A stretch of 64,000 nucleotides of DNA from Natrinema sp. CBA1119 (lineage in GTDB: Archaea > Halobacteriota > Halobacteria > Halobacteriales > Natrialbaceae), in contig NZ_PDBS01000008.1 in the NCBI RefSeq assembly GCF_002572525.1, positions 1 to 64,000 of the forward strand, written 5' to 3'. Shown here in pieces: positions 3,621 through 16,740 of the stretch (positions are counted from its first letter, which is position 1; each line of letters opens with the position of its first letter). The notes under the pieces were generated by a model, which saw only the letters and a list, made by a program, of their open reading frames with translations, was not told the origin of the DNA and searched no databases. Both the position numbers and the translations under genes were made by a program.

Positions 3621-3628
3621 GAACCACC
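3621..3628. repeat. Left 8-bp target-site duplication, GAACCACC
   Basis: This octamer directly abuts the left inverted repeat at 3629. It is repeated exactly at 6708-6715, directly after the outer right inverted repeat. Eight-bp duplications are known for ISH1-group IS5 elements, and the second IS5 copy in this window also has one. Confidence 0.8.
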
Positions 3629-3680
3629 GGCTCTGTTGAAATCCTCAAAGAGTTACAGGTTCGCCCTGTAATTCCACGAG

Positions 3681-4502
3681 ATGAAGGCCCTCCCGAAGTC
3701 GCAGATTCTCCGCTTTACTGAGAAGGCGATCCATCTGGCACGCCGAGCGGTCTCTCAATACTCCTCGAAGTTCTCCAAACACCGCTATACACTCCCGCAG
3801 CACGTTGTTCTGTTGTGTCTCAAAGTTCGAAAGAACACAACCTACCGTGGTCTACTTGACGAACTGATCGAGATGACACGCATCCGACGAGTTCTTGGAT
3901 TAGCCGAACTTCCTACGCCATCAACGCTCTGTAAGGCATTTAACCGGCTTGATATGGCCGTATGGCGTATTATGCTGACTCTCTCAACGACGCTACTTCC
4001 GACGAGCGGAGTTGTTGGAGTTGATGCGTCAGGGTTTGACCGCAGTCACGCTTCGAAACACTACACGAAACGCGCCGAGCTCACGATTCAGCAGCTCAAA
4101 GTGACGCTGTTGGTCGATACAAAGGTGAACGCAATTCTCGATCTCCACGTGACGACGACACGAAAACACGATAGCCAGATCGCTCCGTCGTTGATCAAAC
4201 GCAATCCCGAGAGCATCGATATTCTGCTCGGTGACAAAGGGTACGATGATCAGAAAATCAGGAGACTTGCCCGTCAATACGAGGTTCGTCCACTGATTAA
4301 GCATCGTGAGTTCACGTCACTTCACCGGGCATGGAACGCACGCTTGGACGCTGATCTCTACGGACAACGGAGTCAATCAGAGACTGTCAACTCAACGCTC
4401 AAGCGGAAGTTCGGTGCGTTCGTCCGCTCACGACGGTGGTGGAAGCAGTTCCGTGAACTCACTATCACCTGTCTCAGTCACAACATCGACCGATCACTCT
4501 GA
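3681..4502 (+). CDS. IS5-family DDE transposase
   Basis: The 273-residue protein has the usual order of an IS5/ISH1-type transposase: a basic N-terminal DNA-binding part, then a DDE catalytic core. The first Asp is in GVDASGFDRS (about residue 115), the second in LLGDKGYDDQ (about 182), and the Glu in SQSETVNSTLKRK (about 237). Length is normal and no frame defect is seen, so the enzyme may be active. It is about one-third to one-half similar by eye to the transposase at 7871, so the two elements are related but distinct. Confidence 0.92.
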   Translation: MKALPKSQILRFTEKAIHLARRAVSQYSSKFSKHRYTLPQHVVLLCLKVRKNTTYRGLLDELIEMTRIRRVLGLAELPTPSTLCKAFNRLDMAVWRIMLTLSTTLLPTSGVVGVDASGFDRSHASKHYTKRAELTIQQLKVTLLVDTKVNAILDLHVTTTRKHDSQIAPSLIKRNPESIDILLGDKGYDDQKIRRLARQYEVRPLIKHREFTSLHRAWNARLDADLYGQRSQSETVNSTLKRKFGAFVRSRRWWKQFRELTITCLSHNIDRSL

Positions 4503-4585
4503 GTAATCAAAAGAGGGGACTTACAGATCGCTTAGCACAGTGACCACTCCCAACAGATATTTCAGCGATCAAGATGTCGAACAAA

Positions 4586-4603
4586 GATGATTCCAACATA
4601 GCC
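4586..4603. repeat. Inner right inverted repeat of IS5-type element
   Basis: Reverse complement GGCTATGTTGGAATCATC matches the left end at 15 of 18 positions. It lies 84 bp after the transposase stop. Confidence 0.7.
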
Positions 4604-4680
4604 TTAGACTCCACCTTAATGGTGCCAACATTGCTTTCCTGTTAATTATCCGTGCGCACAGAAAGTTGGAGGGGCGTTCT

Positions 4681-4863
4681 TCAATAGCCGCCTGCATCCG
4701 AAAAGCACCGTCCGCATTTGCTAATCCCATTACTGGCAATTGCCTGTTCTACGGAGGTGTTGTGTAACTGCTCTTGCCTAAGGTGGCGGGTCACACCACA
4801 ATCTGTATGGAACCCGGAGGTACCCCGCTTTCGTTTGTGTAGCGTGTCCGTATTTACGTTCAC
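4681..4863 (-). CDS. Small Cys-rich putative metal-binding protein (cargo gene)
   Basis: The C-terminal 40 residues contain FHTDCGVTRHL and, about 25 residues later, SKCGRCFSDAGGY. These give three cysteines and two histidines in a spacing suited to binding one zinc ion. I believe similar short haloarchaeal proteins exist but cannot name a family. A GTG at 4863 gives 60 residues; an ATG at 4902 gives 73 and is a real alternative. The gene lies inside the transposon-like unit, on the strand opposite to the transposase. Confidence 0.5.
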   Translation of the reverse strand: MNVNTDTLHKRKRGTSGFHTDCGVTRHLRQEQLHNTSVEQAIASNGISKCGRCFSDAGGY

Positions 4864-5130
4864 AATCCCATCCTGGGGAGGTTCGTCGAGGGTGTTGCCC
4901 ATAGCTACCGTTCCCCACCACCTCAAATAGTTATCTTCCCTGACTGTCAAGGTGGTTTTGATCGTCAATCGGCGGCTACCGGTTTCTCTTGCTATTTGCA
5001 GAGCCGTCACAATTAGTGACACTCTGTCTTGACCAGAGCCCAGCAATTAGGTCGATAATCCCGGAGTACATTGTGTCATGATAATGCATACCACAAGATA
5101 TTTCTCCCATCCCTGAGTACGGGTACACCA

Positions 5131-5832
5131 ATGTCTCTGCAAGAACCATCAGCCAGACCTGTGTGTGAAGTCGAGTTTGGCTTTCAGGACTCTCGGTATC
5201 CGTTCGTGGGTGTCACTAAGAAGGAATCGTGCCGGTTCGAACTCGCCGAAATGCTCCCTCGTCCCGATGGGCGGTACGCCGAATACTTCCACGTTAGCGG
5301 AGTCGAACCGGAGCGAGTAGCAGGCTACGCAACCGAGATGGAGACCGTCGACGTCACGATCCTTGCCGAGTATGAGGATGGAGGCAGTTTGGAATTTCTT
5401 GTATCTGGCGATTGTCCTGCATTTCGACTAACCGAACTCGGAGCGCTCCCGCGCGAAGTCTGCGGGAGAGAAGGCGTTGGTCGTCTCGTCGCCGAAATCC
5501 CTGCTGAAGAAAATCCATCGGAAGTCGTCGAGACATTTTTGCAAGAGTATCCGGATGTATCGCTGCTCTCGAAGCGGGAAAAAGACGGTATTGCGCCCCG
5601 ATTTCCAGACTCCGGGTTCCAACGAGTCCTCCAGAATCATCTCACGGATCGCCAACGCGAAGTACTCAAAGCGGCGTTTGAAGAAGGATATTACGAGTGG
5701 CCTCGCGAATGCACCGGCGAAGACATCGCTACGGAACTCGGTATTACATCAGCCACCTTTTCCGAGCATATTCAAGCCGCTGAGCGGAAACTACTCACAA
5801 TTATGTTTAACGGTCCCGATGCCGGAAACTAA
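5131..5832 (+). CDS. Bacterio-opsin activator-like HTH_10 regulator (cargo gene)
   Basis: The 233-residue protein has an N-terminal ligand-sensing region like those of haloarchaeal BAT-type regulators and a C-terminal HTH_10 domain. The latter shows the typical run LTDRQREVLKAAFEEGYY, then ELGITSATFSEHIQAAERK. Such proteins usually act as transcriptional activators. The ATG at 5131 (MSLQEP) is chosen because the preceding 20 codons are not family-like. It is carried inside the 3.08-kb unit and could regulate the neighbouring cargo or host genes. An in-frame upstream ATG-like start at 5071 is less likely. Confidence 0.85.
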   Translation: MSLQEPSARPVCEVEFGFQDSRYPFVGVTKKESCRFELAEMLPRPDGRYAEYFHVSGVEPERVAGYATEMETVDVTILAEYEDGGSLEFLVSGDCPAFRLTELGALPREVCGREGVGRLVAEIPAEENPSEVVETFLQEYPDVSLLSKREKDGIAPRFPDSGFQRVLQNHLTDRQREVLKAAFEEGYYEWPRECTGEDIATELGITSATFSEHIQAAERKLLTIMFNGPDAGN

Positions 5833-5882
5833 TTCCGCGCACAGTTTGGTTGATTACGGCCCACCGAATCCGCCTTCTGCTA

Positions 5883-6122
5883 TTACTCGGGTCCTTTCAC
5901 GACTACCTCCCCATCTGCGAAGACTGTGACATCGCAACCCTCGTACTGGAAGTTGACAGTATCCGATGGGAAATGATGTGAATCAGTAGATTGTGGTCCA
6001 AAGAGATCTGCAAGGGCATCGACATCGATGCTGTTGTAGAGCGGGGGGATTTCGGTGGGATTCTTTCCAGTCGCTTTTGAGACAGAAGTAACGATTGTGT
6101 GGATTACGGATTCACAGTCCAT
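5883..6122 (-). CDS. HalOD1 output-domain protein (cargo gene)
   Basis: The 79-residue protein is a single HalOD1 domain. It has a helical N-terminal half and the signature IPPLYNSIDVDALADLF (about residues 26-42), followed by a beta-rich tail ending VTVFADGEVVVKGPE. HalOD1 is known only as a haloarchaeal domain found alone or on signal-transduction proteins; its action is not established. It is transcribed divergently from the amphi-Trp gene at 6348 with 225 bp between, and a frameshifted paralogue lies at 10199-10466. Confidence 0.82.
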   Translation of the reverse strand: MDCESVIHTIVTSVSKATGKNPTEIPPLYNSIDVDALADLFGPQSTDSHHFPSDTVNFQYEGCDVTVFADGEVVVKGPE

Positions 6123-6347
6123 TTTGTTACATTTCGATGTGACGCCGATTTGTTGTACGTCTGTGCTAGATCCGTGCTCGGGAGTGGGGTATCTCGTTCA
6201 CTCATGGTGTCCAACCTCACAAGAGGTCCGGATGAGATACTGCAGGCTCACTCCATAATCGATGTCCCTACATCGCAAGGGCTTCTGAGTCATGATCGCT
6301 TTATTATTAGGGATTCACTTATCGGTGCAGGAAGCGTACCGTTCATT

Positions 6348-6635
6348 ATGCCTGAAGAAGTCCTGTTCAAATCAGAGAGTGACCAGACCCGAGAAGAAAT
6401 CGCATCGTATCTCCGCAATGTCGCTGATAAGCTCGAACAAGGGGATGCAATCACACTCAAATCCGGTTCCGAGTCTGTGACAATGGAACCACCAGCACGC
6501 CCGACGTTTGAGGTCAAAGCCGAACGCGAGGGGCCAACGGACGGGCCCGGTGAATTGAGTATCGAGTTCGAACTCGAATGGGAGGAAAACGGCAATGAGG
6601 GGGATGGCGGGAGCGACCAGTTAGAAATTGAGTGA
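6348..6635 (+). CDS. Amphi-Trp domain protein (cargo gene)
   Basis: The 95-residue protein begins MPEEVLFKSES and continues with a helix (REEIASYLRNVADKLEQGD) and beta strands ending IEFELEWEE. This matches the amphi-Trp family of small haloarchaeal and bacterial proteins of unknown function. The tail after residue 85 is glycine- and acid-rich. The ATG at 6348 is preferred because upstream in-frame codons are not family-like. It is the last gene inside the transposon-like unit; the outer right repeat begins 54 bp after its stop. Confidence 0.82.
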   Translation: MPEEVLFKSESDQTREEIASYLRNVADKLEQGDAITLKSGSESVTMEPPARPTFEVKAEREGPTDGPGELSIEFELEWEENGNEGDGGSDQLEIE

Positions 6636-6689
6636 TCAATTTGCATCTTTTATTGACTAGCTGTTTCGGACGAGAATCTGTCTGAATAA

Positions 6690-6707
6690 GAGAATTTCAA
6701 CAAAGCC
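6690..6707. repeat. Outer right inverted repeat of the 3.08-kb unit
   Basis: Reverse complement GGCTTTGTTGAAATTCTC matches the left end at 16 of 18 positions, better than the inner end does. It is followed at once by the GAACCACC duplication. Confidence 0.75.
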
Positions 6708-6715
6708 GAACCACC
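6708..6715. repeat. Right 8-bp target-site duplication, GAACCACC
   Basis: Exact partner of 3621-3628. Immediately downstream lies the TATA-like box of the gene at 6748, so the insertion landed just upstream of that promoter. Confidence 0.8.
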
Positions 6716-6724: not shown

Positions 6725-6747
6725 GAATGGTGAAGAGAATTGTCAGT

Positions 6748-7506
6748 ATGGATTCTCCGCCGCCTGGATGGACGACGCATCGGTTCGATGAGCGATCAGT
6801 GCGATTCAGCAACAATGCAAAACGGATAGAAGTAGGCATTAAACCGGCACCCCGTGCGGGTAGGAAGGGGCAGTCTGACACAAATTCAACAGGGTTTGTT
6901 GTCCATGTCCATCAGGACCGAGCTGGTAAAGGAACCCTCGGGGATCGGAACATGGCGACGACTGTTGAGACGTGGGACAAGGCATTGACAACCATCTACA
7001 CGTTCATGGAAAAGTTCAATGCAGAGCAGGCAGCGCTGCCACGGGACGATGTAGAATCGGTCCATCGAAGTCTTGACGACGTCAATACGGCCGAAGCCGT
7101 TCTCTCGACAACAACAGCTGCGGAAGCGCTCACTGATGCCGCAGGGTACACAGACGAGTTATTGCTGGATGTCTTAGCGACAGAGACGAATAGCCAGTTT
7201 CGGTTGGTGGCCCATCGGAAGGGGAGCGAGGTTAACACTATTTATCGGAATCGGGCCTCGGACCTTGGTAATATCTCCATTGCAACGATACACACTACGT
7301 TCCCGGTGGACACATTAGGGGTTGAAACGATACTGGATGCTGAGATGCCGATTGCGATAACGGTCCATGTTGGCAACCATACGATCTATCGGTTCATTTT
7401 CGGCGACAGGAAAGAAACGGACGTCGTCCTTCCTCGCGGGATTCAGCTTGTAACACCAGAGTTTGAGCGAACAGTCATGAACGTCTTAGACGAAAAATGG
7501 ACGTAG
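6748..7506 (+). CDS. Haloarchaeal hypothetical protein
   Basis: The 252-residue soluble, mixed alpha/beta protein is of no family I recognise. It has no signal peptide or membrane helix. The ATG at 6748 (MDSPPPGW) is preferred to the one at 6727 because of the TATA-like box at 6716-6724. The N-terminal 80 residues contain several lysines and arginines and FVVHVHQDRAGKG; the rest includes a Thr/Ala-rich helix and a beta-rich C-terminus. Its neighbours are only mobile elements and the broken peroxiredoxin gene. Confidence 0.65.
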   Translation: MDSPPPGWTTHRFDERSVRFSNNAKRIEVGIKPAPRAGRKGQSDTNSTGFVVHVHQDRAGKGTLGDRNMATTVETWDKALTTIYTFMEKFNAEQAALPRDDVESVHRSLDDVNTAEAVLSTTTAAEALTDAAGYTDELLLDVLATETNSQFRLVAHRKGSEVNTIYRNRASDLGNISIATIHTTFPVDTLGVETILDAEMPIAITVHVGNHTIYRFIFGDRKETDVVLPRGIQLVTPEFERTVMNVLDEKWT

Positions 7507-7784
7507 TATCGCTCTGGTTTGATTACTACGAGTCGAAAACATCGACTGACTTCATTGCATCTTGAACCTCCGACAGGTCCGGCTTCACGAGAGCATCCTC
7601 TGTCATCCATGCATACTGGACGGTTTGTGTGTCGTCGATAACGAAGAGTGCCCGCTGTGAGACGTTTTGATGCTGTTCCCAGATATCGTATCGGACGCCG
7701 TACTCCTCACAGACTTCAGCGAGGCTGTCGCTCAAGAGTGGGAATGTCAAATCGTGCTCGTTGATGAACGCGCGGTGGGAATAG

Positions 7785-7792: not shown

Positions 7793-8730
7793 GGCTCTGG
7801 TGAATCGTTGGACGGCGTCGGTTTCGACCGTCAGAACTAGGAGTATGAAGCGGGAAACCGCCGATGCTCTATGTCGAAAATCTCCCGCTTCACGAGCAAA
7901 GTCGTTCAGTTAGCTAAAAATGCTGTTGGTGAGCGAGGCGAAGTCGCCGCCCCCGAAGGGGGTGGCGGCTTCGCCGAGTATGCGGTAGTGTCGCTGCACT
8001 GTCTGCGGGTTTACCTGGAAAAATCCTACCGAGAAGCACTCGATTTGCTGAGCGAGATGCCACAAATACTCGGGGAGATCGGCCTTGAACCGACCGATCT
8101 CCCCGATCACTCGACGCTAGTCAAGTGGTTTGATAGGATTAAGACCGCACTCTGGCGAGTGCTGCTGCGCCTCTCGGCGCAGCTGCACGGCCAGAGCGGT
8201 CACGCCGCCATTGACGCGACGTTTTTCGACCGCGAAAACGCTAGCAAACACTACTGCCGTCGGACGAATTACCGGGTTCAGACGCTCAAAGCGACAGCTC
8301 TCGTCGACACAGAAAGCCAAGCAATTCTGGACGTTCACTGTACGACCGAGAAACGCCACGACACACAGCTCGGCTGGCAGGTCGCCCGCCGCAACGCGGG
8401 CGACCTCGCCAGCCTCGCTGCCGACAAAGGCTACGACTGGATGGATTTACGCGAAAAACTCCGCGAAGACGGCGTGAGACCGCTGATCAAACATCGTGAG
8501 TTTCGGCCCATCGATCACGCGCATAACGCGCGGATCGATGGGCCTCGATACCGCCAACGAGCGATGTGTGAGACCGTCTTTTCAACGATCAAGCGCACGC
8601 TCGGCGACGCCGTGCGTGCGCGAACTTGGTACGGTGAATTTCGTGAACTCGTTTTGATGTGTGTGGTTCACAACACCAAGCGATCTCTAAAACAGTGAAA
8701 TCAAGCTACGTCTGGCGATTCACCACGTCC
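7793..8730 (+). mobile_element. IS5/ISH1-type element inside the peroxiredoxin gene, 938 bp
   Basis: The left end GGCTCTGGTGAATCG (7793-7807) pairs with CGATTCACCACGTCC (8716-8730) at 12 of 15 positions. A perfect 8-bp duplication, GCACTATC, flanks the element at 7785-7792 and 8731-8738. The single transposase gene fills most of it. Confidence 0.93.
7871..8698 (+). CDS. IS5-family DDE transposase
   Basis: The 275-residue transposase has the DDE core: first Asp in AAIDATFFDRENASKHY (about residue 114), second Asp in LAADKGYDWMDL (about 184), and Glu in RAMCETVFSTIKRT (about 236). Glycine-rich APEGGGGFAEY near residue 30 is a linker between the N-terminal helix and the HTH-like part. The frame is intact and the element has perfect target repeats, so it is likely still mobile or was until recently. 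Confidence 0.93.
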   Translation: MSKISRFTSKVVQLAKNAVGERGEVAAPEGGGGFAEYAVVSLHCLRVYLEKSYREALDLLSEMPQILGEIGLEPTDLPDHSTLVKWFDRIKTALWRVLLRLSAQLHGQSGHAAIDATFFDRENASKHYCRRTNYRVQTLKATALVDTESQAILDVHCTTEKRHDTQLGWQVARRNAGDLASLAADKGYDWMDLREKLREDGVRPLIKHREFRPIDHAHNARIDGPRYRQRAMCETVFSTIKRTLGDAVRARTWYGEFRELVLMCVVHNTKRSLKQ

Positions 8731-8738
8731 GCACTATC
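8731..8738. repeat. Right target duplication GCACTATC
   Basis: Exact match to 7785-7792. It encodes part of the peroxiredoxin motif DSA on the minus strand. Confidence 0.92.
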
Positions 8739-9133
8739 AGTAGAGATGCCGAAGAGATTGACACCCTCGGTGAACGTTAGCCACTCGACATCGCGGAAGT
8801 CACAGAGCTCTTCCGTGCAAATCGGGCTGAAATCGAATGGGTAAAAGGCTAACACAGCAGCGCCTTCATTGGTGTACTCTTTGAGGCTATACTCGTCGAT
8901 TGTCTCACCGTCCGTTCCTGGAAGAGTGAATGAAGGCGCTGTCTCACCGAGTTCAAGCATGTCTCGTATGAGTTTTGACTAATCCAACATAAAATGATAT
9001 GAAGTATGTGTGCTTTGTTCAGTTCGCATATGTAGTTGCCATTCAATACAGACAGAATTCAGCACAGCTATTTCACCAGAATTAATAGAGAAATAATAGG
9101 AAGGTTTACCCGTATAAGAGTTCGAGGTGAAAT

Positions 9134-10926: not shown

Positions 10927-11013
10927 TTCAGGTGGCTACATAATTCGGTTTCAAGGAAAAATGGCCAAATGAGGGGTTCTAAAAAGGACAGTCTTTTTTG
11001 TCAATATGAAAGC

Positions 11014-11235
11014 ATGATGACTGAGACATATGAGGCGATCGTAGATGAGATCCAATCACAGAATGACCGAAAGGTGGTCTTGGTTACTGTCAAAGGGCCG
11101 GATCACCTCCCAAAACGATTCATGGAAATAACGACGAATAGAAGAGTAAAACACCTGAAGAATTTGACCGAATCGCAGGGTGACGTCCCAGGTCACAAGA
11201 TTGGACGGGTTCCGGCCCAGTACGATGAAGGCTGA
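11014..11235 (+). CDS. Small hypothetical protein
   Basis: A 73-residue protein beginning MMTETYEAIVDEIQSQ, predicted helix then strands (KVVLVTVKG). It has a basic middle and no recognised family. The ATG at 11014 lies about 30 nt after a weak AT-rich box (GTTCTAAAAAGG). It follows the DUF7344 gene on the same strand by about 90 bp. Confidence 0.45.
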   Translation: MMTETYEAIVDEIQSQNDRKVVLVTVKGPDHLPKRFMEITTNRRVKHLKNLTESQGDVPGHKIGRVPAQYDEG

Positions 11236-11730
11236 AAGATTGTATGGAACGATATCGGGGAGTAGCGCCGCACTTTTACTGTCCACCTCCGTTCAGGTCT
11301 CCCGACTGAGTGCCTCATCCCGCAGCCAGAACTGCTCGACTATATCCTAAACTTGCGCTTCGTCGCTAAAGCGAGCCTCGAAACCATTGGAGAACAGATC
11401 CACCTCCTCTCCACCGCGGGAGGGCAGGTTCCGATACTTTCGATATTGTACTGAAAACGGAATGGGGAGATACGGGGGTGCCTCCATATGTGTGGGGGAA
11501 GGGGGTCGGAGGCGTTCTATTGCCTGTGGTGATGGCCATTAACTGTTTTTGTTAGTTTCAACTATCCAATAAGTTGATGGTAGTATGGTCACAAGCAGCA
11601 GATGGCGAGGGGAGAGGATTTAGTCGTTGCCCGACAAAATCCGCCCGACTCTGAGACATACGGTCCCTCGCCTTCCGAGATCGAACCACGTTCCGACGTG
11701 AAGCTCTTCTCTCACGTAGACACTGACCTA
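11236..11730. other. 495-bp stretch of relic sequence before IS630
   Basis: A plus-strand frame without a start (11266-11463) encodes a helical fragment with PQPELLDYILNLRFVAKAS that looks protein-like but is not recognised. The 103-bp repeat copy B occupies 11601-11703. No intact gene is seen. Confidence 0.4.
11601..11703. repeat. Copy B of a 103-bp dispersed repeat
   Basis: Partner of 9745-9847, with two small compensating indels and scattered substitutions. It ends 27 bp before the IS630 element that begins at 11731. Confidence 0.6.
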
Positions 11731-12785
11731 TAGTAGACGTTAGAAATAATTGCTCAATTTAGGGATAGAGAGTTGATCAAGAGCGGTATCGATCGCTGTT
11801 GTCAGCTCAGAAAGCGAGTCGAAGAATCGGTTGCTAAGTGCTGATTGCAGCTGTCTCCAGCACTCTTCGACTGGGTTGAGTTCCGGGGAATATGCTGGTA
11901 ACGTGACGAAGGCGAGGTCGTCACGGGCCGCCAGGTCCGTGACGGCCGATGCCTGGAAATACGGTGCTCCATCGAGCACGACGATTAAATCCTCTTCGAA
12001 TTCTTTGCATAACGCGAGAATGAAATGCTTCGCGTGATCGGCGGTGACGTACTCGGTGAACCGTGAGAAGAAGCACTCGCCGTCTTCGGTAATCGCGCCA
12101 AGCAGACACGTCCAGTCGCGTTGGCCAGAAAGTTCGACGCTCGGCCGCGTGCCGCGCGGAAACCACGCGGCACGCGGCTCAACCTGGACGGATTTCTTGG
12201 TCTGATCGATGCAGACTACTGTGGCGTCCATCTCCCGCCGCTTTTTTTGAGTTCCTCGCGGAACTCTTCTGTGTCTGACTCCTCGGCTTCGGCGGCTGTA
12301 CGGCGCGGTTTGTGGTAGCTTAATCCAGCTTCTTTGAGTAACCGGCGGCAACTCGGATAGGAGTACTCGACGCCGTAGGTTTCTTCAAGAAACTCCTGGA
12401 CGAGCGCCGGCGTCCACGCCGGCGCGTCGATACCGACTTCCTCGGGAGGTTCGTGAACGGTTTGTTCAAACTCTTCTTGCTGTGTTCCTGAGAGCTTTCG
12501 TTTTCTCCCGGATCGATGAGCATCAGAGACGGCTTGCTCAAGCGGTTTGTCCGTATCGAGTCGCATGAGCCAGCTGTAGATCGTTCTTCGACCAGTGTCG
12601 TGCCACTCTGCAAGTTCGGTCTGCGTCAGGCCGTTCTTGTATGCAATCGCCGCTAACAACCGTTGTGTCGGCTTGTTTCCCTCAACCTTGCCAAGGGCGT
12701 CTTGGAGTTCTTCGACGGAGATTTCGTCGAGATGGTCCATTGTCTACAGTGACAATCTACGGGCGGAAAATTCTAACGGTTACTA
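11731..12785 (-). mobile_element. IS630-family element, copy 1
   Basis: The ends TAGTAGACGTTAGAAAT (from 11731) and, inverted, TAGTAACCGTTAGAATT (to 12785) are imperfect inverted repeats. TA dinucleotides lie outside both ends (11729-11730 and 12786-12787), as expected for the TA-targeting IS630/Tc1 group. A second, truncated copy starts at 63322. Confidence 0.85.
11740..12740 (-). CDS. IS630 transposase in two frames (A7 slippery site)
   Basis: The upstream frame (12740 down to about 12235) encodes HTH domains with LTQTELAEWHDTGRRTIYSW and stops soon after EELKKSGGRWTPQ. The downstream frame encodes the DDE core: VCIDQTKKS, VVLDGAPYF and SPELNPVEECW. They overlap at a run of seven A residues followed by G (T7 at 12242-12248). 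A -1 slip there gives LKKKRREMDATVV, the sequence read in one frame by copy 2 at 63331, which has eight A residues. The full product would be about 330 residues. Programmed frameshifting is known for some IS families; a simple indel mutation is the alternative. Confidence 0.85.
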
Positions 12786-12841
12786 TAATGTAGGCCTCGG
12801 TCGTTTTCTTGTCATCATAACTCAAGGGTTTCACTCCCATC

Positions 12842-12863
12842 GGCTCTGGTGAATCACCAGAGG
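12842..12863. repeat. Fused or collapsed IS5 terminal repeats
   Basis: GGCTCTGGTGAATC is identical to the first 14 bases of the IS5 element at 7793. It runs straight into CACCAGAGGG, close to the inverse of the same end, forming the palindrome CTCTGGTG-AAT-CACCAGAG. This looks like two IS5 ends joined after loss of the element between them. Confidence 0.5.
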
Positions 12864-12910
12864 GCGTTGGTTTAGACTATGTTAGTAGTAGTGTGAATAA
12901 GTACAATCAC

Positions 12911-14313
12911 CATTCGTCTTTAGCTAAGACTCACACCTCGGTTGCGTAGCGGTAGCGAGCGTCTCTTGTAAGATCGGTCGTTGCTGGTGGATCTTCTGTG
13001 CATCCTCAATCAACCGCTCCAGCAACGGCGGTGGCGAGTAGCCGAGGTACTCACCGAGTTCGTGGAGGATGAGCTGGGCGTGCGACCGGAAGGTCGCCGC
13101 CCAGCGTTCTGGCGGAAACACGATCTCATCATCGGCTTGCTCGGTGACCAGACCCAACAGATCACGACTCACCAGCAGTGACAGCAACGCCGCATACAGC
13201 AGAATCTCCACAACAGCCGGGTTGCTTGTGTCGAACTCATCCAGTTCGTACTGCGTCTTCAGTTCACGAAACAACGTCTCTACCTCCCACCGACACCGAT
13301 ACAGCGTTGCTAGATCAGCCGGGAGGAACTCCTCTCTCGGTAGATTCGTGATGTAGAGATGGTAGTCGTCGGCGTCCGCAACGAGGACGCCGACGACGCG
13401 GAACCGCTTCGTGTCCAGCGACCGTGTTCCGTTGTACGGCCCACGTTTGAACTCCGCTTCGACCTCAACGTCGATGTACTTCCGCGAGAGATCATCGACC
13501 ACTTCGTGGAGCTGCTTGCCCTCCAAGGGAATGGCGCGGCCGCGCCATTCCCGTAATTCTGCCGTTATCACCGGATTCGAGTTCGCTTTCAGCCGACTCA
13601 CGAAGTAGCCGTCGTTCTCATCGATCAACGCGAAGCGGCGGTACTTGAAGTACGCCAGATCGAGTAGAACCAGCCGTCCGTCCAGCCACGAACCTGTCTT
13701 GAACAGAGTGCTGTCGTGTGTTTTCTCGTCCGTCACGTCGATCCGTTCAATCGTCTTGTCGGTGGCATTGTGGAGCAGGTGGAGCTTCGCTCCAGCCTGC
13801 TCCTCGTGACGGGCTTGGAACTCATCAGAGAGGAACTCGTGCAACCGCAACACCGTTCCATCAGCGATCATTACGTCTCTGAATCGGTCGATATCAGCGT
13901 CAACAGCGTCGGGTACAGCGACCTCGTCGAGCGCGGCCTCGACGAGGTCGCGGAGATACTCCGCGAGTGTCGGCGTCAGCCGGTGATAGAACCCGCCAGA
14001 AGAGATTGGTTCGTCAGCTGTGGCGTTGTAGCAGCGTCTGAACCCAGCGAGTGTTCGGCTTTCGCCTGCGGCGAAGCCGAACACGAGCGCCCACACGAGG
14101 ACAGGAATCTGGAGCTTACCCTCTCGCTCGACCACGCCGAGTTCCTCGGCGTGCTCTTCGAGGAACTCGGAGGGAAACAGTGTAGTGAGCCGACGCATAA
14201 TTCTCGATGAGGAGGTGTCGTTGTACATACTCGTCGCCTCCTCATTCCTCTCGAAAAGTAGCCTCGATAAGCCGTCGCTGTCACGTGGTTCTCCCCTTAG
14301 CTAAAGACGGATG
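12911..14313 (-). mobile_element. ISH8-like IS4-family element, 1,403 bp
   Basis: The left end CATTCGTCTTTAGCTAAG (from 12911) matches the inverted right end, CATCCGTCTTTAGCTAAG (to 14313), at 17 of 18 positions. The length agrees with the ISH8 group of Halobacteria. The flanks (AAGTACAATCAC on the left, GGTGGTTATGTA on the right) do not repeat, so there is no target duplication. A deletion or recombination next to the element is likely. Confidence 0.9.
12924..14228 (-). CDS. IS4-family (ISH8-like) transposase
   Basis: The 434-residue transposase has the DDE residues of the IS4 family: first Asp in MIADGTVLRLHEF (about residue 120), second Asp in VLLDLAYFKYRRF (about 190), and the YREK signature YRCRWEVETLFRELK (about residues 310-324) with correct Y-x2-R-x3-E-x6-K spacing. 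It is full length and in frame. Confidence 0.95.
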   Translation of the reverse strand: MYNDTSSSRIMRRLTTLFPSEFLEEHAEELGVVEREGKLQIPVLVWALVFGFAAGESRTLAGFRRCYNATADEPISSGGFYHRLTPTLAEYLRDLVEAALDEVAVPDAVDADIDRFRDVMIADGTVLRLHEFLSDEFQARHEEQAGAKLHLLHNATDKTIERIDVTDEKTHDSTLFKTGSWLDGRLVLLDLAYFKYRRFALIDENDGYFVSRLKANSNPVITAELREWRGRAIPLEGKQLHEVVDDLSRKYIDVEVEAEFKRGPYNGTRSLDTKRFRVVGVLVADADDYHLYITNLPREEFLPADLATLYRCRWEVETLFRELKTQYELDEFDTSNPAVVEILLYAALLSLLVSRDLLGLVTEQADDEIVFPPERWAATFRSHAQLILHELGEYLGYSPPPLLERLIEDAQKIHQQRPILQETLATATQPRCES

Positions 14314-14460
14314 GGTGGTTATGTAACGTGCTCTTCGGTAGATCAATTTCCTCAGCGATATCGGTGAGCGTCCCTCCGTTTATTTGGCGAATTACGTCGA
14401 GGATACGTAACGTCCGGACCGCTCGAACCGGAGAGTCGTGCTCGTCTTTTGGTATCATAT
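14314..14460 (-). pseudogene. IclR-family regulator, 5' remnant cut by ISH8
   Basis: Only the first 49 codons remain: MIPKDEHDSPVRAVRTLRIL, then the start of the winged helix with INGGTLTDIAEEIDLPKSTLHNH. They align closely with the N-terminus of the intact IclR protein at 52837-53622. The coding sequence breaks exactly at the end of the ISH8-like element, and the rest of the gene is not found on the other side. The upstream DNA also resembles that of the intact gene. Confidence 0.88.
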
Positions 14461-15366
14461 GCCAACTAATGAGGTAGAGTCACTAAAGTCTTATCTAGCT
14501 GAATTTTCCACCTTGCCCTCTATGGATAGAACACAAGGGTAAATGGGGTCGAGACGCGTTTGTTTACTGTTTGAGTCCGATTCAGCAGAGCAGAAACTGA
14601 GTCCGTTCTTCTAACAGAAATCGACGTGTATCGGCCCAGTTAATTACAATCATATGCTTGTAAATGACCTGACTTCGACAGTGGACGACGGTCGGCCGGT
14701 CGAGATGGTTTTGCAACCCGTCGGACCCTCTACACGAGCCTGATAACCGTTTAGATCAGCATCCTTACTAAGAGAGATTTGGAAATCACACATATATACG
14801 CCATAGTTTTAAATCAATTAATGGAGAGATTTTCTAGTGCATTCACATTTGAGTCAATTCAGCGTAGATGAAACGGTGGAGAGGCCGATTTAGCGCGATT
14901 CGATACCTAGACTGCGTAATTAGCACGCACTCTCCGAAGATGCTGATTCAACGTGGTGGGATCATGATACTCACTGCTACCGTCGGCATCGTCGTCTATC
15001 ACAACTCAGTCGGCCGTCTGCATATCTCAACGCCCGGGCGCCGCAAGTTGTGTGTAGTCCGGCTACGCGAACGAGATCAAGTAGGCCGAACAGGATTGAC
15101 TGCCAGTCGACAATGAGGAAGTCAGACTCAGTACTTCACAAAGCCGGTAGTTAAGAAATCCGCTAGCTTAGTTGTGACCAACAAACAGAGACAGTGGGAA
15201 GTGAAATCCATGAGGACCAGTTCCTTAACTTTCTCGTCAACGTTCTCCCCGGCGCATTTACCCTAAACTTCAGATATAAATAATTACCCCAGTCATTATC
15301 AACCGTAGTGATTGGTGACAGGGCTTTTATTGGTATCCCATCTGGCCACCTCTGATTCCTTTTTGG
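14461..15366. other. 906-bp stretch, mostly old IclR control region
   Basis: The left part is the former upstream region of the truncated IclR gene. It shares with the 53.6-kb IclR region a promoter-like block (CTAAAGTCTTATCTAGCTGA), an element ATTCAGCAGAGCAGAAAC and a 20-bp palindrome at 14644-14663. The right part has no recognisable gene; an 82-codon plus-strand frame at 14868-15116 lacks family features and is not called. Confidence 0.5.
14644..14663. promoter_or_regulatory. Candidate IclR operator palindrome
   Basis: TTACAATCATATGCTTGTAA is a near-perfect dyad (TTACA-N2-CATATG-N2-TGTAA). It lies about 185 bp upstream of the truncated IclR start. Two similar sites lie upstream of the intact IclR gene at 53851 and 53930. 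Position and repetition suggest a binding site of these IclR regulators (inference). Confidence 0.5.
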
Positions 15367-16740
15367 ATGACTTCTCCTACCCTACATATTAAACAAGAGG
15401 ACGTTCATCTGTGGGCCATGGATCGTCACCACTGGTTACTTGCCGCGCTGATGGGAGGGATCCACTCCATTTTCCACGTCTTTATGCGGCTTATCCCAGC
15501 TTTCATTCCTGTCTTGACAGGGGCCTTGGGATATCCGCTCTGGAAGCTAGGCATGCTCGTCAGTGCCTACTTCGTCGGTTCCTCGGTCGGCTTGCTCCCG
15601 ATGGGCGAACTATCAGACCGGTACGACCGACGGATCACACTCTCGGGCGCCCTTGCGATCGTGGGACTCGGCTACCTCCTGTTTTCTGTGGCGCCTCTCG
15701 TTGGCACAGCCTTGCCCGAGACGGCAATCGCCGGCCTCGCCTTCGACGGGCCATTCGTGGTGATGGCGACCAGTATGGTCATCTCAGGTTTTGGGACCAG
15801 TGCCCATGTTCCCGTCGGCGTTCCCCTACTCACTGCCAACGCGACGGCCGACGACCGCGGAAAACTCCTTGGCATCTGGGGGGGCAGTTCGAAGATTGGC
15901 GACGCTGTTGGTCCGGCGGCCGTTGGCGTACTCATCCTCGTACTCGGCTGGCAGGCGATCCTGTTCAGTTTCGGCCTGCTTGGCCTCGTCTGCGCTGCTG
16001 GACTCTACGTGATCCTCGGCGCCTCGGGCTTCGAGACGCGACCTGTGGGAGATCAGGCTGAGAGGGACGATAATGCCGAGACCTGGGAGAGTCTGCTAGC
16101 TGACCGACGGCGATACCTCTATCCCATGCTCGTTCTCGTGGGCTACTTTGCGGCCTACAGCATCGTCGTCCAAGGTACTATCACGTTTGTCCCCGCGTTC
16201 ATCACAGATGTTTACGGATACTCGTTTAGCCTCGGCTCGATATCGTTCGGCCCGGAGTCATTCGCCGACTTTGCGCTGTCCGTGCTGCTTGTCGGCGCGG
16301 CTATCAGCCGCTTCGTCGGTGGCTATCTCGTCGACCGCTACGAGCACCGCTTAGTCCTCGTTGCAACCCTAATCATGGCTGCGGCCGCGATGTTCGTATT
16401 CTCGCTGGCTTCGCTCGGTCCGGTCGCACTTATCGTCGTATTGATTGTCTTCGGTGCCGGCCTTTGGGGCAATAGTCCTGCCCGCGACTCGTTAGTGAGC
16501 GATCTAGGTCCCGACGAGCGTGAGGGTCGGACGTTCAGCTACCTCTGGACCGCGTCGCGGGTCTTCGGCGCCCTCTCACCGACAGCGATCGGCTTTCTTG
16601 CCGGCTCAGCCGGTATCCGAAAAGGCTTCACCTATCTCTCCATCGCCACGCTCATCGCTGCATTGTTCGTCGCGTTGCTGTTCAGTAATAGGATCTACCG
16701 CGACAACGCTATCGATCCGGATGTCGCTCTTGACGACTGA
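15367..16740 (+). CDS. MFS transporter
   Basis: The 457-residue integral membrane protein has the usual twelve hydrophobic helices in two halves separated by a hydrophilic loop near residues 228-245 (DQAERDDNAETWES). The loop after helix 2 carries the MFS signature as GELSDRYDRR (about residues 80-89), and GGYLVDRYEHR repeats it in the second half. No close relative can be named. Substrate might be a carboxylate or an aromatic acid given the neighbouring catabolic genes, but export of a toxic compound is equally possible. A TATA-like TTTTATTGG lies about 35 nt upstream. Confidence 0.88.
   Translation: MTSPTLHIKQEDVHLWAMDRHHWLLAALMGGIHSIFHVFMRLIPAFIPVLTGALGYPLWKLGMLVSAYFVGSSVGLLPMGELSDRYDRRITLSGALAIVGLGYLLFSVAPLVGTALPETAIAGLAFDGPFVVMATSMVISGFGTSAHVPVGVPLLTANATADDRGKLLGIWGGSSKIGDAVGPAAVGVLILVLGWQAILFSFGLLGLVCAAGLYVILGASGFETRPVGDQAERDDNAETWESLLADRRRYLYPMLVLVGYFAAYSIVVQGTITFVPAFITDVYGYSFSLGSISFGPESFADFALSVLLVGAAISRFVGGYLVDRYEHRLVLVATLIMAAAAMFVFSLASLGPVALIVVLIVFGAGLWGNSPARDSLVSDLGPDEREGRTFSYLWTASRVFGALSPTAIGFLAGSAGIRKGFTYLSIATLIAALFVALLFSNRIYRDNAIDPDVALDD

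Follow-up and report, generated by a model that had tools for sequence, protein, structure and literature searches.

A 3.08-kb segment of the genome of Natrinema sp. CBA1119, in which an IS5-type transposase gene travels with a small set of signalling genes, is best explained, from its sequence, as having moved into its site in one piece through a transposase that makes an 8-bp duplication. Taking all the evidence together, we consider it very likely that this one-piece move involved the pairing of an insertion sequence (IS) left end with a foreign right end, as an extended case of a habit shared by a whole clade of haloarchaeal elements. The window (the whole stretch of DNA analysed) comprises 64,000 nucleotides, and the features of the unit within it are listed in Table 1.

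Table 1. Features of the mobile unit, in window coordinates.
Feature	Position	Strand	Basis
Left target duplication GAACCACC	3621..3628	.	Sequence; same in N. salinisoli
Left terminal inverted repeat (IRL)	3629..3646	+	Sequence
IS5-type DDE transposase, 273 aa, intact	3681..4502	+	Pfam PF01609 (DDE_Tnp_1); NF033579 214 bits, cutoff 140
Inner, decayed right-end domain of the putative ancestral 975-bp IS (terminal repeat 4586-4603)	4552..4603	-	81% over 52 nt to L149 right end
Small Cys-containing ORF, ~73 aa, start revised	4681..4902	-	N. salinisoli comparison; homologue in Haloarcula sp. JP-L23
BAT + HTH_10 regulator	5131..5832	+	PF15915 5.8e-32; PF04967 1.1e-22
HalOD1 protein, 79 aa	5883..6122	-	PF18545 2.1e-21
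Amphi-Trp protein, 95 aa	6348..6635	+	PF20068 5.5e-38; 81-91% nt to homologues at different loci of other Natrinema genomes
Outer right-end domain (terminal repeat 6690-6707), the end actually used	6640..6707	-	89% over 74 nt to inner right end of Haladaptatus unit
Right target duplication GAACCACC	6708..6715	.	Sequence

The unit measures 3079 bp, or 3095 bp with the copy of GAACCACC at each outer tip. Its left terminal repeat reads GGCTCTGTTGAAATCCTC and its right one (IRR), as the reverse complement, GGCTTTGTTGAAATTCTC. An earlier note, made from the letters of this DNA, had described matching 18-bp ends and a perfect 8-bp duplication; both are present, with 16 of 18 positions identical between IRL and IRR, and the curated HMM NF033579 agrees with its naming of the element as IS5-type. 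The 8-bp duplication (GAACCACC) is accompanied by terminal repeats that start with GG (GGCTCTGTTGAAA), a combination that marks the ISH1 subgroup and makes the unit a candidate member of it. When 2696 candidate end pairs from all loci were examined, 79 distinct pairs had identical 8-mers at their tips, while four displaced controls of the same test gave none.

The transposase, BAT/HTH_10, HalOD1 and amphi-Trp genes enclosed by these ends, as the earlier note had listed them, all encode complete domains by Pfam and NCBIfam. Its fifth gene, a Cys-rich small protein, was right as to the presence of a small Cys-containing ORF and wrong as to extent: the 121-aa reading (4681-5046) was rejected, since a stop interrupts the longer frame in Natrinema salinisoli upstream of codon 49, and a better start follows it, from which ~73 codons can be read without a break. 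This ORF has no Pfam or NCBIfam match and resembles an annotated 74-aa gene that lies beside a related regulator in Haloarcula sp. JP-L23. Homologues of the cargo also occur apart from the IS. The amphi-Trp gene has 81-91% identical homologues in Natrinema genomes that lack such ends, and the homology stops ~10 nt past the stop codon, which is the border of the right-end domain. BAT and HalOD1 genes are found together without a transposase in Haloprofundus (82% DNA identity) and near each other in Haloarcula. The earlier note had regarded cargo genes in the same place without the IS as evidence against a mobile unit; these IS-free homologues all sit elsewhere.

The whole unit with both flanks, including the duplication GAACCACC, is also present at 96-97% identity on the N. 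salinisoli plasmid NZ_CP084470; common descent or plasmid transfer may account for its presence in both species. In N. salinisoli the transposase copy carries a frameshift and a stop. The BAT, HalOD1 and amphi-Trp genes are open, with more silent than replacing changes per site (ratio ~0.3, from very few changes). Between the two species, the unit (3629-6707) is 97.2% identical and its flanks less so (92-94.5%). The exact unit was found at this one site only, in these two species, so its mobility is judged from the duplication and from a diverged empty site. The comparison that the earlier note had proposed, with a site free of the insert, yielded one homologous locus in another Natrinema genome (L068, genome G027; 79% identity overall), in which the right flank runs on past the insertion point into sequence like the left flank. 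It reads TTCTGGAACCCTCGTATTTTTG, where the window has TTTGGAACCACC and GTATTTTTAG on either side of the junction, and the alignment is continuous through the junction at the GAACCACC point. The left side is matched over ~14 nt only; a related kinase gene also lies upstream in this genome.

A conserved gene (6727-7506) lies directly downstream of the unit. Farther along, the window holds a second IS5 element at 7793-8730, which is ISH19/ISH28-like, 938 bp long and flanked by an 8-bp duplication. It splits a redoxin gene on the minus strand (pieces at 7526-7750 and 8706-8960) that is intact in N. salinisoli, where the locus (L072, ~12186-12193) forms a clean empty site.

The unit contains two right ends. 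Positions 3629-4603 make up a complete small IS of 975 bp, whose right end is complete in extent with a decayed terminal repeat. This inner end (4586-4603; reverse complement GGCTATGTTGGAATCATC) is followed by TTAGACTC, so that no duplication adjoins it, as the earlier note had also observed. It is closest to the right ends of L149, L112 and L151, while the outer end is nearest to those of L115 and L136 and to the inner end of a Haladaptatus unit. Judged by these sequence relationships, the two ends are of different right-end lineages, and the unit therefore most plausibly arose when the left end of an IS paired with a foreign right end.

One could suppose that two ordinary events are seen here, namely a 975-bp IS beside a resident regulatory cluster, with the outer end and the second GAACCACC present by coincidence. 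The occurrence of the cargo genes elsewhere without the IS would suit this account, which we nevertheless regard as very improbable: the 8-bp identity falls exactly at an 18-bp family end, with none in the displaced controls; the inner IS has no duplication; and the insert-free relative lacks the entire insert. Under the preferred reading, a 975-bp IS without cargo would at first have had a small cluster of signalling genes as its neighbour, and the far side of this cluster would have been formed by the right end of a second copy from the same group of elements. The IS's own right end would then have decayed, its left end would have paired with the foreign right end ~2 kb downstream, and the DNA between them would have been carried along. 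This order of events is inferred, as is the way in which genes first enter the units.

Similar use of ends is seen elsewhere. A Haladaptatus unit of 5124 bp uses its outer end and has a fossil inner right end, and in some units (e.g., L077) the left boundary is an end that lies upstream of the unit's own IRL. It therefore seems that any suitably oriented pair of family ends is usable. If the transposase of this clade does accept any such pair, nearly every copy would carry host genes and, over time, exchange them. Foreign-end use explains the window unit and the Haladaptatus unit. On the other hand, fossil inner right ends are seen in few units, so most cargo was probably not gained through simple outer-end use.

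Transposase matches occur in 159 of 292 Halobacteria genomes (E <= 1e-60). The transposase search gave 79 loci, and at 34 of these the left end and a right end farther downstream are both adjoined by a perfect 8-bp duplication. These 34 units range from 1071 to 5124 bp and are nearly all of different length; with further loci, 61 distinct units of 1071-6060 bp were validated by target-site duplications (TSDs). Controls from the same DNA, five units that belong to other IS5 groups, measured 929-940 bp. The premise of the earlier note that a normal IS5 element carries only a transposase thus holds for those groups but not for this clade. Of its two suggestions, an IS and a solo end acting as a composite fits the window unit, with its right ends of different lineage, while a transporter-type IS fits the family, in which TSD-validated cargo units are the norm.

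The left end, the transposase gene with the ~13 nt that follow its stop codon, and ~65 nt of right-end domain are common to the units. The DNA between transposase and right end, mostly with one complete gene, shows no relationship among units; even where transposases are 97-99% identical, homology is lost 5-17 nt past the stop codon. Other units have these ends and duplications but no transposase gene, and several of them are 350-700 bp long with a small ORF. Two more family units reside in the genome of the window itself (L152, G000:C2:50000-66000): one of 2917 bp carries a gene for a 260-aa Tat-type protein and one of 3695 bp a gene for an 802-aa sensor-type protein.

Smaller elements were noted as well. 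At one locus (L079, 13979-17933), three different transposase-less units of 647, 620 and 701 bp lie within 4 kb, each with its own ORF and duplication. A non-coding, MITE-like element of 125 bp, bounded by family ends and flanked by an 8-bp duplication, is present in the genome of the window (L056, 1501-1625; G000:C2:228553-228677), and L138 holds one of similar size. A candidate extended unit, L139, was rejected, since here a further IS5 element interrupts the right repeat of the L140 unit (948 = 940 + 8 bp).

In relatives of the window unit, cargo moves together with the IS. The 1193-bp ISHla2 unit, which carries a gene for a 57-aa two-helix membrane protein, occupies eight sites in two genomes (five and three) with identical cargo; in Halorubrum xinjiangense a 1319-bp unit is present three times within a single genome; and Halogranum rubrum and Halorubrum laminariae have one cargo unit in common, which is flanked by a different duplication in each. 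Cargo is also exchanged between IS lineages in these relatives. It is more similar than the transposases in L019/L115 (93% against 87%) and in L094/L126 (88% over 218 nt against 80%), and 475 nt of a transposase-less unit recur at 75% identity in an autonomous one.

Two or more membrane segments were predicted in 24 of 44 cargo ORFs as compared to 6 of 52 neighbouring annotated CDS, figures that are indicative only because the 44 ORFs were hand-chosen and one entry is a placeholder for IlvD. Many of the cargo products are small proteins with two to four membrane helices, which might suggest that the variable part is a single fast-evolving accessory gene of the IS and not captured host genes. 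This is improbable, as thioredoxin, acetyltransferase, O-methyltransferase, SnoaL, alpha/beta hydrolase, BAT/HTH_10 and MATE proteins are carried as well, the cargo is not always oriented in the same way, and similarity between units is confined to a few of them. At least four units (the window unit, L117, L162 and L163) contain a regulator of the BAT/HTH_10 type. In L218 (G135:C1:341400-347100; 391-2194), the family transposase is followed by a gene for a 233-aa PGF-CTERM protein with weak similarity to S-layer glycoprotein. A passenger gene of a Halorubrum lacusprofundi transposon, Hlac_3088, has been described as a candidate virus-exclusion factor (PMC10544981), and the PGF-CTERM protein, matched by description only, fits that account and is probably the same gene product.

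There are two candidate routes by which genes may first enter the units: foreign-end use, as above, and replacement of internal cargo between fixed ends. Internal replacement of this kind has been proposed for plant Pack elements, and in polyploid haloarchaeal cells it could proceed by interrupted gap repair or by recombination between copies. The inner right end of the window unit would then be copied filler and not an old IS end. Cargo in most units fills the space from ~13 nt past the stop codon of the transposase to ~65 nt short of the tip, as replacement would have it, and the same cargo occurs with different transposases. Within one transposase clade the right-end type is constant although every copy has a cargo of its own, and such retention in some clades points to internal replacement. 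As the explanation for the window unit it is nonetheless rather doubtful, for the inner right end is complete, and positioned and oriented like a genuine IS end. In addition, L087 and L092 have near-identical transposases with unrelated right ends; a Mantel test of transposase against right-end similarity gave a weak correlation (r = 0.13), the pairwise list holding both linkage and swaps. In the genome that holds L106, the other ilvD copy matches the L106 cargo at only 74% identity, so this cargo is not a recent self-copy. Searches for the donor of a recent capture found none for the window cargo or for the L106 ilvD. The pairing of an IS left end with a foreign right end remains our preferred reading of the window unit.

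It is possible, and we propose it tentatively, that the clade forms a shared gene-cassette system in which complete host genes sit in a sharply bordered slot and are swapped between autonomous and transposase-less units and between IS lineages, with a bias to membrane and surface proteins, some perhaps involved in virus-host conflict. The borders of the slot would be the post-transposase motif ..ATACAG on one side and, on the other, ..TTCGCA in the right end. The idea that the border motif is an intergenic repeat of general occurrence, or part of a cassette array, was set aside; the motif is enriched but rare. Several copies of a GCTGAATACAGAGCGCGAA-like motif, which resembles the cargo borders of some units, surround a cargo gene in L150 (~11000-16000) that is inverted relative to L019. 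Covariation of the cargo borders as an inverted repeat was rejected as only weak, with 135 of 5000 and 527 of 20000 permutations reaching the observed value.

Compared to known classes of element, the window unit is not a composite transposon with two IS copies around the cargo, as it has one transposase and, on its right side, only a 68-bp end. Nor is it an IS5 element of ~1 kb with a transposase only, a description that would suit the 975-bp inner IS: it has three to four extra genes in 3079 bp. Passengers unrelated to transposition do lie between the ends of one IS, as in a transporter IS, and the family as a whole, with its variable cargo and its transposase-less cassettes that have the same ends and TSDs, behaves as a modular IS.

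A literature search on ISHla2, ISHxa2, prokaryotic Pack-TIR elements and haloarchaeal transporter IS, with subscription journals and ISfinder outside its scope, found no paper on this family, and its novelty is therefore provisional. The closest public records are ISHla2 and ISHxa2, annotated as IS5-like, which have the same ends and a 92-95% identical transposase but different cargo; ISHxa2 (2490 bp, TSD CACCGTCT) carries two membrane-protein genes. Plant Pack-TIR and Pack-MULE elements similarly have conserved ends around varied host sequence. In contrast to them, the units described here carry complete genes, usually have the transposase aboard and bear no sign of copying from a retained donor.

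Passenger-bearing IS and mobile insertion cassettes are known concepts, and an IS with passenger genes unrelated to transposition is termed a transporter IS (tIS) (PMC3129680, PMC7986276). In this clade, carriage is the rule and the cargo differs per copy, and the window unit has, moreover, used a foreign right end. For IS231, extra DNA with passenger genes has been described, together with the statement that such modularity had not been observed in other IS families (PMC2266710). Like IS231/MIC231 of Bacillus cereus, an IS4-family system, the haloarchaeal units have IS ends around passengers, a large size range and transposase-less cassettes; unlike it, they have an IS5-type transposase and place the cargo mostly between transposase and right end, whereas that of IS231 lies between left end and transposase. 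The clade thus differs from known modular IS in family, domain of life, cargo position and regularity of cargo, and it extends modular behaviour, known from Bacillus IS231, to the IS5 family and to archaea. As a small IS clade with whole genes aboard it acts as a small gene shuttle, a concrete vehicle for haloarchaea, among which gene exchange between genera is frequent, and one that makes the capture step testable. Because annotation usually ends at the transposase, genes carried in this manner are easily missed as mobile.
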